Translations under genes and position numbers: made by a program
Shown here: positions 8,923 through 16,632 of the stretch, in pieces
Position numbering within the stretch: the first letter of the stretch is position 1
Layout of the letters: every line of letters begins with the position of its first letter
Notes under the pieces: generated by a model
Seen by the model: the letters and a program-made list of their open reading frames with translations, nothing else
What the model was told of the DNA's origin: nothing
Databases searched by the model: none
IMG/VR virus record: IMGVR_UViG_3300010334_000014
Location: 1 to 34,967 of that record
DNA: 34,967 nucleotides
Source: a virus
Reading direction: 5' to 3' (one strand)

Positions 8923-9137
8923 AGAGGTACTCCGTGTCTCATTCTATTAGGATATTCTTGCTCAAGCCAAAAACAACGTACATCACCACTAGCGTCACGT
9001 GCAAGAAAACCTTTCCATATAGTATGCTTAGTCGTGAAATCGTGACAGTCTAAAAACTGAATGTCGTAATAGATCTTCATTCCATAAGCACCGGCAAGTA
9101 AAGCCATACACACTATACACACGATTTTAAAGGACAT
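8919..9137 (-). CDS. Small membrane-anchored or exported protein (72 aa)
   Basis: Start chosen at ATG 9137, with GGAG about 7 bases upstream; a longer frame from 9329 would run deep inside the primase-helicase gene. The N-terminus MSFKIVCIVCMALLAGAYGM is a hydrophobic anchor or signal segment, followed by an about 50-residue soluble part with four aromatic and two Cys residues (DCHDF, VRCFWLEQEYPN). It overlaps the end of the primase-helicase by 11 bases. Function unknown. Confidence 0.78.
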   Translation of the reverse strand: MSFKIVCIVCMALLAGAYGMKIYYDIQFLDCHDFTTKHTIWKGFLARDASGDVRCFWLEQEYPNRMRHGVPL

Positions 9138-10710
9138 CTTTAATCTCCAACATACGACCAGTATCTCGATTGTATAAAAGACTTGCACAATGTGGTGACG
9201 TAAGACCTGCAAAGCGATTCTTAAGTATTGATACCTTAGTGGTATTACGCTCCATAGGATCTTCTGCTTGTGCGTTACGAACCAATCCGATAACGATGTC
9301 AGATAGCTGAGCAATGCTGCCAGAACCACGTAGTTGTGACAATGACGTTGCAGCTCCTTCTTCGTGTCCTTTGGACTCTGGACGCTTTAGGTGAGATACT
9401 GCAATTAAGCAGATACCAGTCTCCTGCACCAGCATACGAAGCTTAGTCATTAACTCATCAATGCTCTTACGCTCATCACCATTTGACTGAGCACTAACAA
9501 CCATGCTAATGTGATCAAGAAATACATACTTGCAGTCCGAAGCTTTGGCGAAGTAACGAATGCGATTAATGACATTATCGATGTCAGTGCTACCAAAGTT
9601 ATCCCAAAAGAATAAACGATCAGTAGCAAGAGTGTTGTCGAATGCATCTTTTAACTCCTCGTGTGATACCTGCGTACTTGGCAGGTGTAATGGTTTATTA
9701 GCATATAAGGACATAATGGATTTAGCAGTCTTACTAACTGATTCCTCCATAAACATACATCCTATACGTCCGTCTGTGGTCTTAAGCAAGTGCCAAAGAA
9801 TTTCTCTAAGGAATTGTGATTTGCCAAGACCTGATCCAGCAGTGACTGTGATGAGTTCAGCAGGTCTAATTCCATAAGTGAGTTCATTGACTCCGTCCCA
9901 AGGGTACAAGGCAAGTGACTGCTCGACTGGCTTCGTAACTTCGTCCCATAGTGACGACCCTGCAATAATCCCGTCGGGTGTCCATTGTTCGGCATTCCAC
10001 CATAAGTTAACATATTCTGCACTCTTACCACCTTTGAGATAGTCGCAAGCATCTTTATACCCTGTTAAGTGTTTAATGATTTTACATTTAGAGCCAAATA
10101 ACTCAGCCACTTCGTTGACTGCTTTTGTACCAGCTTCATCACTATCAAAGGACAAGTAGATTGTCTCGAAGCTATCAAGCCATTCATACTGTGCCTTACA
10201 GTCCTTTAGAGCTGCACTAGCACCGTTTTTAACAGAGACATGGGGATACTTACTACCTGCCATTTGAAACCCTGCTAGAGCGTCTAGTTCTCCTTCGTGG
10301 ATAGTGACGTTACGTCCTCCCTTAGCAAACTTGTTTTGTCCGAATAAGGTAGTGGCTTTCCAGTCACCTTGAATACTGAAGGACTTATCTGCGACAGTAC
10401 GCACTTTGAGACCAGCAATGGAGTTGTCAGCATCATAGTAAGGATAATAATGATTCTTAGCATCTTGCTTTACTCCGTAGGCTAACGCAGTATTGTGAGT
10501 AATGCCACGATCACTGATAGAACTGCTAGTAAGATTGTCATAATTTGTAAAATTCCGCATTGGTTTAATTGCCTGTTTAGTTACTTCTCCGTCACCGGTG
10601 ACATAGGTTTGACATACGTGACAGTATTCGTGATTGTCGTCATAGAGTGAATTACCATCACTAGAGCCACATTTAGTGCATGGAATGTGTTTTATAAATT
10701 GACTAGTCAT
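9127..10710 (-). CDS. Bifunctional DNA primase-helicase, T7 gp4-like
   Basis: It unwinds DNA at the fork and makes RNA primers. The 527 residues contain a zinc-binding domain (CTKCG at 11-14 and EYCHVC at 30-33), a TOPRIM primase core (IHEGELDALAG, E139; LSFDSDEAG, D189 and D191) and a RecA-like helicase: Walker A TAGSGLGKSQ (290-299), Walker B KYVFLDH (394-400), H440 in VSHLKR, and the arginine-finger region SQLRGSGSI. The length is close to T7 gp4 (566). ATG 10710 is chosen because the zinc domain starts right after; an upstream ATG at 10779 lies within the preceding gene. The preceding 51-aa gene overlaps by 8 bases. Confidence 0.96.
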   Translation of the reverse strand: MTSQFIKHIPCTKCGSSDGNSLYDDNHEYCHVCQTYVTGDGEVTKQAIKPMRNFTNYDNLTSSSISDRGITHNTALAYGVKQDAKNHYYPYYDADNSIAGLKVRTVADKSFSIQGDWKATTLFGQNKFAKGGRNVTIHEGELDALAGFQMAGSKYPHVSVKNGASAALKDCKAQYEWLDSFETIYLSFDSDEAGTKAVNEVAELFGSKCKIIKHLTGYKDACDYLKGGKSAEYVNLWWNAEQWTPDGIIAGSSLWDEVTKPVEQSLALYPWDGVNELTYGIRPAELITVTAGSGLGKSQFLREILWHLLKTTDGRIGCMFMEESVSKTAKSIMSLYANKPLHLPSTQVSHEELKDAFDNTLATDRLFFWDNFGSTDIDNVINRIRYFAKASDCKYVFLDHISMVVSAQSNGDERKSIDELMTKLRMLVQETGICLIAVSHLKRPESKGHEEGAATSLSQLRGSGSIAQLSDIVIGLVRNAQAEDPMERNTTKVSILKNRFAGLTSPHCASLLYNRDTGRMLEIKDVL

Positions 10711-10858
10711 ATTCGTATTCCTGCGTTCGAGTCTCTTCGAGTCTATCGTAGATATCGACCATGACGACATCAATTCCATATAGGTCTATCGCTTGTTTAA
10801 TGTCATCTAGGACAAAGTGATACCAAGCATTTTGAGAGGTAAAGCGGTCTTCGTTCAT
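10703..10858 (-). CDS. Small acidic protein upstream of primase-helicase (51 aa)
   Basis: MNEDRFTSQNAWYHFVLDDI then KQAIDLYGIDVVMVDIYDRL and a Glu/Tyr-rich end. GGAG 8-10 bases upstream supports the start. It overlaps the primase-helicase start by 8 bases and shares ATGA with a 32-aa upstream peptide. Probably a compact helical protein; family not recognised. Confidence 0.75.
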   Translation of the reverse strand: MNEDRFTSQNAWYHFVLDDIKQAIDLYGIDVVMVDIYDRLEETRTQEYEYD

Positions 10859-10953
10859 AGTGTGTTCTCCGTTTTTAGTGAAGCCCTACTATACTTATAA
10901 GTTAAGACATATATAGTTATAACAATAATAGTTAAACCATATAAGAAAAACAT
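10855..10953 (-). CDS. Putative 32-aa membrane micro-protein
   Basis: MFFLYGLTIIVITIYVLTYK followed by YSRASLKTENTL: one clear hydrophobic span with a positively charged end, expected in the inner membrane. The stop overlaps the next ATG (ATGA). It is the first gene after the internal promoter at 10976-11003. The ribosome site is weak (AAGG directly at the ATG; GTAAG further up), which lowers confidence. Parts of this DNA reappear in front of the terminase genes (14839-14979), where the frame is broken. Confidence 0.55.
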   Translation of the reverse strand: MFFLYGLTIIVITIYVLTYKYSRASLKTENTL

Positions 10954-10975
10954 CCTTAGTGTCTTACTTCTGAGT

Positions 10976-11003
10976 ATTATAGTGCAAAAGTTTAGTCTGT
11001 TAA
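10976..11003 (-). promoter_or_regulatory. Sigma70-type promoter for the replication block
   Basis: On the minus strand, TTAACA (11003-10998), a 16-base spacer, and TATAAT (10981-10976). It begins in the last codons of the zinc-finger gene at 10992 and would start transcription just before the 32-aa micro-gene and the primase-helicase. One mismatch to the -35 consensus, perfect -10. Confidence 0.75.
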
Positions 11004-11222
11004 AGGATTGTCGTTCCATAATGTGAAATAGTCATCATTTTTCATATCGTGAAATTCCTCCTCTTCGTCTTCGTGTCTTAAATCCGTTCGCTCAATCGAT
11101 AAGACATCACTAGAAATAGATCCATAGCACTTATTACACATATCTAAGAATTGCCCAGTTTGTACGCTCTTGCGTGTCGCCTCATAGTCGGACAACGCTT
11201 TATTGCAACAATAGCATCTCAT
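10992..11222 (-). CDS. Small zinc-finger-like protein (76 aa)
   Basis: MRCYCCNKALSDYEATRKSV then GQFLDMCNKCYGSISSD: two CxxC pairs (residues 3-6 and 29-32) that should bind zinc, followed by an acidic tail (RHEDEEEEFHDMKND). Small proteins with this Cys pattern are frequent in phages; function unknown, perhaps nucleic-acid or protein binding. AAAAGGATT precedes the ATG. It ends the early cluster; the promoter for the replication block overlaps its last codons. Confidence 0.82.
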   Translation of the reverse strand: MRCYCCNKALSDYEATRKSVQTGQFLDMCNKCYGSISSDVLSIERTDLRHEDEEEEFHDMKNDDYFTLWNDNPLTD

Positions 11223-11781: not shown

Positions 11782-11982
11782 TTATAAAATCTCCTTTAGT
11801 GAATTGTACCCCAGTAAGTATAAATTATTTCTAAGCTTATTGATAGCTCTCTTTTCAATTTCGTATACCGCTTGATGACTGATACCCATCATAGTGCCAA
11901 TTTCATCATAAGTGTATATATCAGTACGTCGACAAGCTTTACAAGTGTAATATGGGTCGCATTTGCAGCTTTTAGGCTTCAT
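11782..11982 (-). CDS. Sigma factor region 4-like HTH protein with Cys cluster (66 aa)
   Basis: Residues 24-51 (TYDEIGTMMGISHQAVYEIE plus KRAINKLR) match the helix-turn-helix of sigma70 region 4.2, which reads the -35 box. The N-terminus has four cysteines (C6, C8, C14, C17), which may bind a metal. No other sigma domains are present, so it cannot be a full sigma factor; it may be a small DNA-binding regulator or an RNA polymerase-binding appropriator. GGGG six bases before the ATG is a good ribosome site. An early-expressed regulator fits a phage without its own RNA polymerase. Confidence 0.82.
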   Translation of the reverse strand: MKPKSCKCDPYYTCKACRRTDIYTYDEIGTMMGISHQAVYEIEKRAINKLRNNLYLLGYNSLKEIL

Positions 11983-13241: not shown

Positions 13242-14015
13242 TTAGTTTACAACGTTAAGATTAAAAACCGGTGCAACGTGATCCACTACAAACCCCGTTT
13301 GATCCTTTTTTGCTTTACCCTTAGCGTACAATGCGACAATGATATTACCGGCTTCAATATGACGGATATCTGTATTATCACCTGATACGCAATTCAAACC
13401 TAAGAATTTTGCAGGGATAGTTTTTTCTGATCTAAAAACTACAGCAATTCTCATTTTATTTTGCATTGCAATTTTTACGTATTTTTGATAAGGTAAAACA
13501 CCGCTATAGCTAAAAGTAAGATCATAATTTTTAGGTAGATCTACTCTATTCGCACGTTTTGTATAATCATAAAATTGTATTTCAGGAAAAACACTCATGA
13601 TATTTTTGTATTCTATCCCGTTAACTGTTAACGGTACGTTTTCCCATACTATATCGCTTGTGCCATTTAAGCGAACTAATGGAATAAACCCTTTTTTTGC
13701 AGCACGTGCGATAAGCTTTTTAATATCTAGCACAATGTTATGCATGAATAATTCTCTATGCTCAAAATATAGTTTTGCTTTATTGATACGTGCCAATTGA
13801 ATGCTGGAATATACACCGCCTAAGCCAGCCGTATTTAAGCAAGCTTCACCGCATTGTGCAATTGCTTCCATTCCACAAGTGTTATAACCGCTTAAGTTTG
13901 CCGGTGCCATGTATAAGATCCCGGTGAGATAACCTTCAGATTGACCCTTAACAGTTTTGGCATTAGTGTCGATAGAGATTAATGGAATACGTTTTAATTT
14001 GATAGTGTTAAGCAT
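13242..14015 (-). CDS. DUF7227-like (GP88-type) phage protein, Cys-containing
   Basis: 257 residues from ATG 14015, chosen because AAGGATCTACC lies immediately upstream. The region YMAPANLSGYNTCGMEAIAQ and CGEACLNTAGLGG has three Cys residues in a C-x8-C-x3-C pattern. Further on come RLNGTSDIVWENV and the repeated Tyr/Phe-rich stretch FYDYTKRA. This pattern (N/G-rich Cys cluster, then R-L-N-G-T-S-D) occurs in a phage family I recall as DUF7227 or gene product 88. Its function is unknown; the clustered cysteines suggest a metal or iron-sulphur site. It is the first sizeable early gene of the leftward arm. Confidence 0.75.
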   Translation of the reverse strand: MLNTIKLKRIPLISIDTNAKTVKGQSEGYLTGILYMAPANLSGYNTCGMEAIAQCGEACLNTAGLGGVYSSIQLARINKAKLYFEHRELFMHNIVLDIKKLIARAAKKGFIPLVRLNGTSDIVWENVPLTVNGIEYKNIMSVFPEIQFYDYTKRANRVDLPKNYDLTFSYSGVLPYQKYVKIAMQNKMRIAVVFRSEKTIPAKFLGLNCVSGDNTDIRHIEAGNIIVALYAKGKAKKDQTGFVVDHVAPVFNLNVVN

Positions 14016-14025
14016 GGTAGATCCT

Positions 14026-14118
14026 TTATAGGTATACAACGATATAGATAACAGTTACAACGATAGAGTACAACGTGAAGCCGGTTAGAATGAAGCTTTT
14101 TACTTGATTAGATAACAT
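14026..14118 (-). CDS. 30-aa membrane micro-protein, first gene of the leftward arm
   Basis: MLSNQVKSFILTGFTLYSIV, then VTVIYIVVYL: nearly the whole chain is one membrane span. AAGGATATAAA directly before the ATG is a good ribosome site, and the stop is ten bases upstream of the next gene. First-transcribed small membrane peptides in phages often modify the host envelope or exclude rivals, but nothing here identifies its role. Confidence 0.65.
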   Translation of the reverse strand: MLSNQVKSFILTGFTLYSIVVTVIYIVVYL

Positions 14119-14780
14119 TTTATATCCTTTATTGTTTAAGTACGTAACACTATTTTAGGGCATTTCAAGTATAAATCTATAGGTGTTTACCCTTAGTTTT
14201 ACAAATAAATTACACAATGCAATTGCTTAATGCTTACAGTATTTAACGGTACAATTCAGGGAATGTATACTAGGATAAACCCTTAGTCTATAAAGTATCT
14301 CATATTGTGAAATATTGTCGATACCTTGTAAGTACTCTATATTTCCCTATGCTTTATTGTCCTATATAGGTACCTTCAGTGACTCATATGCTTATCCCTT
14401 TGGAGCACCTTCAAAGCACCTTGTAAGTGAATACTTACTAACTTAGACTCTGAAGTGAGCACTTACAAACTTAGACGGGGGGCTGGGTGAGCTTCACAGT
14501 ATTCTTTAACGGAACCCACAGAGATTCCTAAAAAGAAAAAACAAGCAATAGCTCTAAAGTAACGAAAAAGCAAGATAAAGTGCCTCTAACGTAACAAATA
14601 AGTTATGTTTAAGAATCAACGACTTAGTAACGACTGTGTCCCTATTAAATGTGCCTAAAAAAGTAGCAGATAAGTGTATGTCGGAGATGCCCACCCGAAG
14701 GGCTGTCTAAGATGTCCTAGGTGTGCTCCCCGAAGGGGCTAAGACAACACAAGAGACTGTAAATAAATCTTACAAAGGTA
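14119..14780. other. Non-coding divergent control region (possible origin)
   Basis: No convincing gene on either strand. It holds two ACTAAGGGT elements on the minus strand (near 14189-14198 and 14279-14287), a weak minus-strand promoter candidate (TCGACA 14321-14316, 16-base spacer, GATACT 14299-14294), GCACCTT direct repeats (14405, 14416), a tandem pair of dyads (14425-14476) and two CCCGAAGGG-type hairpins (14689-14703, 14728-14738). It lies between the divergent arms, the usual place for early promoters, and may also contain an origin of replication. Confidence 0.7.
14425..14476. repeat. Two tandem 24-bp repeats, each with a dyad
   Basis: Copies at 14425-14448 and 14453-14476 (28-bp period) share AAGTGARYACTTAC followed by WAACTTAGAC. 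In the first, GTAAGT and ACTTAC form a 6-bp inverted repeat; in the second, AAGTG and CACTT do. Likely a protein-binding site or origin iterons. Confidence 0.6.
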
Positions 14781-14809
14781 TTGACAAAGAGACAAAGAAG
14801 TGTTATAAT
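14781..14809 (+). promoter_or_regulatory. Consensus sigma70 promoter for the rightward arm
   Basis: TTGACA (14781-14786), exactly 17 bases, TATAAT (14804-14809): a perfect match to consensus. It is followed by AAGGAG and a 15-codon open frame (TTG 14827 to TAA 14874), then the leader module and the small terminase gene at 15015. It probably drives the packaging and portal genes. Confidence 0.92.
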
Positions 14810-14838: not shown

Positions 14839-14979
14839 ACACTAAGGATGTTTTACTTAGATGAAAAGCACTAAGGGTGTTTTATCTTATTTTGTTATAA
14901 CTAACTAAGTTAAACAACTTAAGTAAAACAACTAATAAAGAAATACTCCTATAAGTTAACTTTAAAGTATAGTAGGGCT
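14839..14979 (+). promoter_or_regulatory. Leader module related to the one before the primase block
   Basis: Carries ACACTAAGGATGTTTT (14839), a second copy GCACTAAGGGTGTTTT (14868), TTGTTATAACTA (14892) and AAGTATAGTAGGGCT (14965-14979). The same elements in the same order occur on the minus strand at 10962-10882. Here the 32-aa micro-gene frame is closed by early stops, leaving only the MF[FY]L start. It may be an operator or RNA control element, a second phage-specific promoter, or a decayed duplicate. Confidence 0.6.
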
Positions 14980-15014
14980 GTCTAAAAAAGACAATAACCT
15001 GAGAGAACAAACAA

Positions 15015-15389
15015 TTGAATGATGTTGTCGTAAAACCTAAAGCAAAGATGGGTCGTCCTCGTAAAGAGGATTTGAAGAAAGCTAAACTACCAATGGGTCG
15101 TCCTAAAAACGATACCGGTCGCTTAGCTGAATTTAAACAAAGACTCTTAGGAACATCAGGTAGTGCTGTCATCGAAAAGATTATCCAGATAGGTCAGAAC
15201 GATGACCATCCCGGACAGATGGCTGCATTGAAGATGGCAATGGATAGAATCCTACCGTTGTCAATGTTTGAGAAAGATGCTAAAGGTCAACGCAATGCCA
15301 TTCAGATTAACATCACTGGTATTGGTGAAGCTAAGATTGAGACTGCTTCTGACTATGTTGATGAAGTAGTGGATGAAGATGAAGCTTGA
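15015..15389 (+). CDS. Putative small terminase subunit (124 aa)
   Basis: The gene lies directly before the large terminase and overlaps it by 17 bases. The N-terminus has two AT-hook-like GRPRK/GRPK segments (MGRPRKEDLKKAKLPMGRPK), followed by a helical region (GSAVIEKIIQIGQNDDHPGQ, MAALKMAMDRILPLS) and an acidic tail (EVVDEDEA). This layout is common for DNA-recognising small terminases in podoviruses of this type. The start is TTG at 15015 (GAGAGAAC upstream); the first in-frame ATG, at 15048, would remove 11 residues. Assignment rests on position and basic motif more than on a clear family match. Confidence 0.75.
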   Translation: MNDVVVKPKAKMGRPRKEDLKKAKLPMGRPKNDTGRLAEFKQRLLGTSGSAVIEKIIQIGQNDDHPGQMAALKMAMDRILPLSMFEKDAKGQRNAIQINITGIGEAKIETASDYVDEVVDEDEA

Positions 15390-16632
15390 CTTTGAACTAC
15401 TGCCTTGGCAGCAAGAGGTCTACAAAGACCCTACAAGATTTAAGGTAATTGTTGCTGGTCGTCGCTGTGGTAAGTCAAGATTGTCTGCCATTAGTTTGAT
15501 TGTCGAAGGACTAAAGTGTCCTAAAGGCTCAGCAGTAATGTATGTAGCTCCTACACAAGGGCAAGCAAGACAGATTATTTGGGATGTCCTCATGGACTTA
15601 GGAAGAGATGTAATTCAGTCTTCCCACGTGAACAACATGGACATCACCTTAGTAAATGGTGCAAAGATTTACGTCAGAGGTTCTGACCGTCCAGATACCC
15701 TTCGTGGTGTCAGTTTGACATATTTAGTCTTGGACGAGGTAGCTGACATTAAGAGTGAAACTTGGGAGAAGGTCTTACGTGCTTCTCTTTCTGATAAAAA
15801 AGGTTCTGCCCTGTTTATCGGTACTCCTAAAGGACGTAACTGGTTTTACGATATGTACAATATCGGTCTTGAAGAAGAAGACAAAGATTGGAAGTCTTGG
15901 CATTTCACCACCAAGGATAATCCTTTGATTGATCCTGATGAGATTGAAGGTGCAAGAAAGAGTTTAAGTTCTTTTGCATTCAAACAAGAATACGAGGCAT
16001 CCTTTGATAATGCAGGTACTGACGTATTTAAGGAAGCTTGGCTCAAATACGGAGAAGAGCCGTCATATGGGTCTTACTACATTGCAATCGATTTGGCTGG
16101 ATTTGAGAACATCAATAATTCGGCAGAGCGTAAGAAACGTCTTGATAAAACCGCTATTGCTGTGGTTAAGGTTGATGAAGAAGGTGAATGGTTTGTTCAC
16201 AAGATTGAAACTGGTCGTTGGGATATTCAAGACACCGCCAGACGCATCCTAAAGAACATAGCTGAGTTTAAACCTTTGGCTGTAGGGATAGAGCGAGGAA
16301 GTCTTAAGAACGCTGTGTTGCCCTATTTAAGCGATTTGATGAGGTCTAATAATGTGTACTGTCATATTCAAGACTTGACACACGGTAATAAGAAAAAGAC
16401 TGAACGTGTTATCTGGGCTTTACAAGGACGATTCGAGCATGGTAAGGTTGTCCTAAACGAAGATGAGGACTGGGCTGATTTTAAAGATGAGTTCTTGATG
16501 TTCCCTACACCACAAGTGCATGATGACTTGATTGATGCTTTAAGCTACATTGACCAACTAGCGGTTACATCTTATTTTGCAGATGATGACTCCGATGAAT
16601 ACGAACCTTTGGATATGATAAGTGGATACTAA
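15373..16632 (+). CDS. Terminase large subunit (packaging ATPase-nuclease)
   Basis: It pumps DNA into the prohead and cuts concatemers. The ATPase domain has Walker A VAGRRCGKS (27-35), Walker B LTYLVLDE (115-122) and a coupling motif FIGTPKGRNWF (148-158). The C-terminal RNase H-like nuclease shows IAIDLAG (D240), GIERG (E307) and HDDLIDAL (D384, D385). Length 419 aa is typical of the Terminase_6-like group. It starts within the end of the small subunit gene (ATG 15373; an ATG two codons later is possible). The next gene overlaps its last 11 bases. Confidence 0.96.
   Translation: MKMKLDFELLPWQQEVYKDPTRFKVIVAGRRCGKSRLSAISLIVEGLKCPKGSAVMYVAPTQGQARQIIWDVLMDLGRDVIQSSHVNNMDITLVNGAKIYVRGSDRPDTLRGVSLTYLVLDEVADIKSETWEKVLRASLSDKKGSALFIGTPKGRNWFYDMYNIGLEEEDKDWKSWHFTTKDNPLIDPDEIEGARKSLSSFAFKQEYEASFDNAGTDVFKEAWLKYGEEPSYGSYYIAIDLAGFENINNSAERKKRLDKTAIAVVKVDEEGEWFVHKIETGRWDIQDTARRILKNIAEFKPLAVGIERGSLKNAVLPYLSDLMRSNNVYCHIQDLTHGNKKKTERVIWALQGRFEHGKVVLNEDEDWADFKDEFLMFPTPQVHDDLIDALSYIDQLAVTSYFADDDSDEYEPLDMISGY

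Follow-up and report, generated by a model that had tools for sequence, protein, structure and literature searches.

The two oppositely directed arms of this virus genome begin with leaders that share a set of short sites, and comparison of related sequences inclines us, if only modestly, to the view that these are double-stranded-DNA operators by which one regulator would co-regulate both arms. The window (the whole stretch of DNA that was analyzed, a virus record of 34,967 bases) has early and replication genes on its minus strand and terminase and structural genes on its plus strand. Its main features are as follows.

10976..11003, minus strand: sigma70 promoter P1 of the replication arm, TTAACA-N16-TATAAT, 11/12 matches; the -10 is kept in relatives
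10966..10975, minus strand: dyad 1, ACT-CAGA-AGT, directly after the -10 and across the expected start of transcription
10947..10962, minus strand: element A, ACACTAAGGATGTTTT, replication arm, exact; loop CTAAGG within an inverted repeat
10914..10925, minus strand: element B, TTGTTATAACTA, replication arm, exact; includes the palindrome GTTATAAC
10882-10896, minus strand: element C, AAGTATAGTAGGGCT, replication arm, exact
10882..10905, minus strand: extended element C, TTAACTTATAAGTATAGTAGGGCT, replication arm; includes dyad 2, ACT-TATA-AGT, at 10893-10902
10855..10953, minus strand: 32-aa frame, open in the window, not conserved
10703..10858, minus strand: conserved 51-aa gene, function not assigned, first gene after the replication leader
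9127..10779, minus strand: DNA primase/helicase open reading frame after the replication leader, overlapping the 51-aa gene; its real start may be internal
14781..14809, plus strand: sigma70 promoter P1 of the terminase arm, TTGACA-N17-TATAAT, 12/12 matches, with TG before the -10
14839..14854, plus strand: element A, copy 1, terminase arm, exact
14868..14883, plus strand: element A, copy 2, terminase arm, 2 mismatches
14892..14903, plus strand: element B, terminase arm, exact
14965-14979, plus strand: element C, terminase arm, exact
14956..14979, plus strand: extended element C, TTAACTTTAAAGTATAGTAGGGCT, terminase arm; includes the dyad ACT-TTAA-AGT at 14959-14968
14980..14992, plus strand: RNA hairpin GUCU-AAAAA-AGAC after C, terminase arm; its stem covaries in relatives
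15015..15389, plus strand: probable small terminase subunit (no family match), first gene after the terminase leader, preceding TerL
15373..16632, plus strand: terminase large subunit (TerL)

A preliminary description of this DNA had noticed that elements A, B, and C follow both sigma70 promoters in the same order and sense, with a second copy of A in the terminase arm. Both observations hold: the copies of the three elements are exact, the second A is present with 2 mismatches, and the alignment of the terminase leader to the replication leader scores 20, as compared to a maximum of 12 in 200 shuffles. Match counts alone favor only A, which has 5 matches in the window at up to 3 mismatches (0.54 expected); the counts for B (9 versus 7.4 expected) and C (2 versus 1.3 expected) are not above chance. 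We consider the module to be real because of its order, sense, position, and conservation. Two features had been missed, namely, the dyad ACTCAGAAGT (10975-10966), directly after the replication -10, and the covarying RNA hairpin directly after C in the terminase arm.

A pattern search of IMG/VR identified 13 stretches that carry element A, and in all of those that are long enough to show both arms, A and C have the same layout in each. A and C are kept in about a dozen relatives. The preliminary description had proposed a search for the elements before the primase and terminase genes of related phages; A and C are present in both arms of L004, L005, L009, and L012, and they are found in the available arm or arms of most of the others among L003 to L015 (L006 has A only). 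Most close relatives have no element B in their replication leader. The conservation of A and C is not due to coding: the 32-aa frame, previously proposed as a micro-gene, stops after 6 codons in L004, L005, L009, L012, and L015 (ATGTTTTTCTTATATGTATAA), so that it is interrupted in most relatives, and we reject it as a coding gene. It is also extremely improbable that the module is a decaying duplicate of such a gene, as had been suggested, or a chance resemblance. The open frame in the window would fit a decaying duplicate, but A and C stay almost exact in both arms where the frame is broken.

The exact A, B, and C words are confined to the window's clade; other clades share words of their own between the two leaders. 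We collected 80 relatives with TerL (79-99% identity) and 80 more with the primase, and we compared more than 60 distinct leaders. We called a terminase promoter in 81 loci, and in nearly all of them it has consensus hexamers and lies about 500-600 nt before TerL (those of L132, L156, and L129 were called further from TerL and are less certain). The replication arm also starts similarly in the relatives, with a promoter and leader directly after a small zinc-protein gene.

Both leaders are enriched in the 10-bp dyad ACT-N4-AGT: in a set of 32 nonredundant leaders (4.25 kb), 25 contain it, with 40 sites in all, or 9.4 per kb versus 0.51 per kb across the whole loci. The motif was chosen by a spaced-dyad count and a spacer scan on the same leaders in which it was then counted, and the nominal probabilities of around 1e-36, which ignore both this post hoc choice and the kinship of the sequences, should not be taken at face value. 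Other spacers scored much lower in the scan; the next were N1, which is partly nested in ACTACTTAGT/ACTAAGTAGT, and N5, from the L097 clade. The window's leaders contain 3 dyads, and the rest of its sequence (34.7 kb) contains 8. Of 23 distinct replication leaders, 16 have a dyad with its start at 0-4 nt past the -10; three have no dyad, and in the other four, the nearest dyad is at least 14 nt from the -10. Near the -10, the cores vary (CAGA, ATGG, ATGA, AAGA, TATA, ATAT, AAGT, and ACAT) and the ACT and AGT ends are constant. Free central bases with fixed ends are as expected for an operator.

The leader words co-vary between the arms, with a terminase-to-replication score of 17.3 within clades versus 10.8 between clades, which was not reached in any of 2,000 label permutations. 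Orientation is not fixed. Asymmetric cores of the dyad are found either way around (ACTT 22 times and AAGT 19, TCTA 10 and TAGA 5, CCTA 5 and TAGG 3), and in L113, L122, L129, L136, L137, and L147, the best match between the two leaders is reversed relative to transcription, with a score of 18-30; same-strand matches score 9-15, and shuffles reach at most 13-14. In the clade of L113, L122, and L137, the reversed match covers about 24-55 nt and is a direct repeat on one strand of the genome; L125, from the same group, has neither a reversed nor a same-strand match. The shared block is a direct repeat with copies about 4 kb apart in L122, L136, L137, and L147, and an inverted repeat in the window. 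Recognition as double-stranded DNA is favored because the cores flip, because the block is reversed in the sister clade, and because part of the replication dyad should lie upstream of +1 (at an offset of 0-4 nt, this part should not be transcribed). Of the options in the preliminary description, we thus favor the DNA operator, with sites that are shared between the arms and indifferent to orientation.

Distant leaders outside the discovery set are also enriched. Among terminase leaders (TerL identity mostly 67-70%), 2 of 8 contain a total of 4 dyads, at 3.3 per kb versus 0.47 per kb; among replication leaders, some of whose promoters were wrongly assigned, 4 of 15 contain 10 dyads, at 6.1 per kb versus 0.47 per kb. 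The enrichment persists in distant relatives, but it is weaker, and the shared leader words seem to drift again (CATAGAAG, CATAGATGT). Dyads are not enriched in the named distant phages MEP401, HTVC115P, MW202697, and MW202701.

Sites can also be arrayed. The replication leader of L104 (2055-2197, minus strand) has about seven tandem units of the CTTAAGTAGT type with a 10-bp period, or about one helical turn. Five ACT-N4-AGT units (several of them GACT-N4-AGTC) lie at 34-120 of L201, with a period of 19-20 bp, beside a C-tract. A C-tract, CCCC(T)CCCCC (G-rich on the plus strand), lies in the early-promoter region on the minus strand of the window, upstream of the terminase promoter, at about 14450-14510. 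This tract is found in most relatives and also in L238 near 2870-2890, and the distant phage MW202796 has a similar G-rich tract.

The observations are that the arms share dyads, that these are enriched in the leaders at particular positions, and that they occur in either orientation. From these, we infer binding, repression, timing, and the kind of regulator as follows. The ACT-N4-AGT dyads would be bound by a regulator that is a dimer and, most probably, an early protein of the phage. In the replication arm, dyad 1 covers the sigma70 transcription start, and a bound regulator would keep transcription from initiating. The terminase dyads are about 70-160 bp downstream of the promoter and could serve as roadblocks or switch sites. 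The late promoter is close to consensus and, if nothing held it back, would fire as soon as the phage infected a cell; the sites would thus postpone middle and late expression and coordinate the two. A and C would be the form that the leader takes in the window's clade, with C composed of dyad 2 and a clade-specific tail, TATAGTAGGGCT. Part of this clade's module may act otherwise: A and C do not flip between the arms, and the position of C depends on the start codon.

We also considered other readings. The leader could be an RNA element that acts in nut- or put-like antitermination, in attenuation, or as an mRNA stabilizer, with A as a hairpin and C as a linear signal to the polymerase or the ribosome; we think this unlikely. 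The similar leader elements of lambda (nutL and nutR) and HK022 (putL and putR) also lie behind the promoters of two opposite operons, and in the window's clade, the order and sense of A and C are constant in both arms, A is able to pair, and its CUAAGG loop is invariant. The hairpin after C covaries: its 4-bp stem has C-G, U-A, and G-C pairs, and 0 of 500 shuffles reach its score, in a comparison of only 7 sequences. (This hairpin lies directly before the ribosome-binding site of the probable small terminase subunit gene; at this place, the small hairpin of other clades is a different one, CUGCGAUAGCAG or CUACUUACGUAG.) In two clades, the RNAalifold scores of the terminase leaders exceed those of column shuffles (z = -5.5 and -5.8), but DNA palindromes give the same signal. 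However, unlike in lambda and HK022, orientation is not kept across clades, and no boxA (YGCTCTTTA with at most 1 mismatch) was found in 66 distinct leaders. The sister clade has the shared block in the opposite orientation with respect to transcription, the dyad cores flip, and AACTTAGAAGTAAACTTAGAAG is a direct repeat in L151 and L160 and an inverted repeat in their sisters. Covariation in the stem of A is not above that of shuffles, which led us to reject A as an RNA hairpin; folding of the window's leaders is unremarkable (z of -0.9 to -1.4); and the leaders have no Rfam match (the single weak, sub-threshold match in the scan was outside them). Antitermination or another RNA role, which the preliminary description had also offered, is therefore not favored for the module in general.

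Its suggestion of a phage-modified promoter we retain for element C only, whose tail is fixed near the start codon. C might be a second, phage-specific promoter, used later by the host RNA polymerase with a phage cofactor; this has a modest chance of being correct. It would have a -10-like TATAGT after the conserved TTAACTTWWAAG box, no -35, a start near GGGCT, and a short 5' untranslated region. Both arms retain the 24-bp block, and the placement of C follows the gene start, at 21-25 nt from the start codon in the replication arm and 29-35 nt in the terminase arm, whereas the distance to the -10 of P1 ranges from 66 to 157 nt. The covarying hairpin of the terminase arm begins directly after C; hairpins occur at the 5' ends of some phage mRNAs. 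In addition, an early promoter in the L101 clade is TTGACA-N17-TATAGT-AGTGACC, and the distant L257 also has AGTATAGTAGGG in its terminase leader. Against this, C lacks a -35 and has just two copies per genome, so either a cofactor is needed or the idea is weakened. The obvious cofactor, a sigma-region-4-like protein, was not found in the fragment of L257, which has the tail of C, and the dyads of clades without C would be left unexplained. C ends in TATAGTAGGG and roughly resembles TATAGGGAGA, which is similar to the promoters of T7-type single-subunit RNA polymerases, and like them it is near start codons; but there are only two copies, and no such polymerase is among the annotated open reading frames. 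The large open reading frames of the window that we scanned had no match to one, and a search with PF00940 was empty, as was its control. Another alternative, which we consider quite improbable, is that the sites have a nontranscriptional role, as replication-initiator or packaging sites, and are near promoters by chance. The tandem units of L104 and L201 are iteron-like, and the probable small terminase subunit, which is encoded beside the AT-rich terminase leader, has two N-terminal AT-hook-like GRP motifs (GRPRK and GRPK) that are also found in relatives. However, the sites keep to positions defined by the promoter in each arm, the dyads of the terminase arm follow the promoter in all clades, and it is difficult to envisage a single such role that would serve both arms.

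If the sites are operators, then the dyad leaders would work most like the operator/roadblock set of the cluster A mycobacteriophages, by analogy and without two of its defining features. The stoperators of these phages (bound by the repressor of L5 or TipsytheTRex) are repeats of a short site that are proposed to stop both initiation and elongation; the sites, which are 13 bp long and asymmetric, bind a monomer, point in the direction of transcription, and are found throughout the genome (PMC9283540). Here, too, one short site is repeated behind promoters. In contrast to stoperators, the dyads are symmetric, with asymmetric cores and whole blocks in both orientations, and they are concentrated in the two leaders; the 8 in the rest of the window are about the background expected from composition. 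The sites also recall the C-boxes of restriction-modification controller proteins, which are GACT-N3-AGTC or, for C.Csp231I, CTAAG-N5-CTTAG (PMC3115060). Both have half-sites of ACT/AGT close to promoters, CTAAG-N5-CTTAG itself is found in the L101 clade, and the C.Csp231I test duplex TCACACTAAGGAAAACTTAGTAAAA has CACTAAGG in common with element A. However, the spacer here is 4 (or 5) rather than 3 (40 ACT-N4-AGT sites versus 1 ACT-N3-AGT site in 4.25 kb), the genomic setting differs, and 12 virus records contain no HTH_3 protein. CTAAG-N5-CTTAG was rejected as a universal site, with only 3 occurrences in the leaders. The resemblance to C-boxes is a lead, not evidence of membership.

We considered two proteins of the early region as candidate regulators.

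10992..11222, minus strand: zinc protein, 76 aa, with an acidic tail
11782..11982, minus strand: sigma-70 region-4-like HTH protein, 66 aa (PF04545, E = 4.5e-8), clade-restricted

Of the early proteins, only the zinc protein is present in all 19 of the genomes compared. The first 50 residues of its model have a pLDDT of about 88, but the best hit of a PDB fold search was not significant (E = 1.7), and a sequence search found no match. Zinc proteins of 58-81 aa with an acidic tail, annotated as hypothetical, are beside the primase in many aquatic phages, including MEP401 (L237). The sigma-region-4-like protein, which the preliminary description had proposed as the binding partner, matches mostly sigma factors among its top PDB sequence hits (model pLDDT, 81). 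It occurs only in the window's clade, in parts of another group, in L229 to L236, and in L294, and we reject it as a universal binder, as it is missing from the clades where dyads are richest (L097, L101, and L113). We also rejected an XRE/HTH_3 regulator: that profile matched none of the 12 virus records, which may be fragments, and its positive control matched 14 of 14. No repressor was recognized by PHROGs or Pfam among the open reading frames scanned. It is possible that the regulator is a host protein instead. The early region otherwise encodes, for the most part, small proteins with no assigned function; an exception is the early gene at 13242-14039, which matches GP88 (PF17338, E = 1.5e-38).

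More speculatively, and with little confidence, the late promoter, with its full consensus, and the replication promoter may be jointly held and released through the ACT-N4-AGT operators by an undescribed type of regulator, perhaps the small zinc protein, to which the window's clade would add a phage-specific promoter (C). Literature searches on regulation in Zobellviridae-like phages found nothing on point. Our guess, from the type of collection and from named neighbors (a Limnohabitans phage and spring phages), is that this group of phages is mostly from lakes. These phages have a T7-like replication module without a recognized RNA polymerase of their own, and we found no mechanism for their early, middle, and late timing in the searchable literature. 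An operator set that is shared by both arms would provide a concrete and testable switch, defined across dozens of uncultured phages, whose operator vocabulary can be seen to drift jointly in the two arms.
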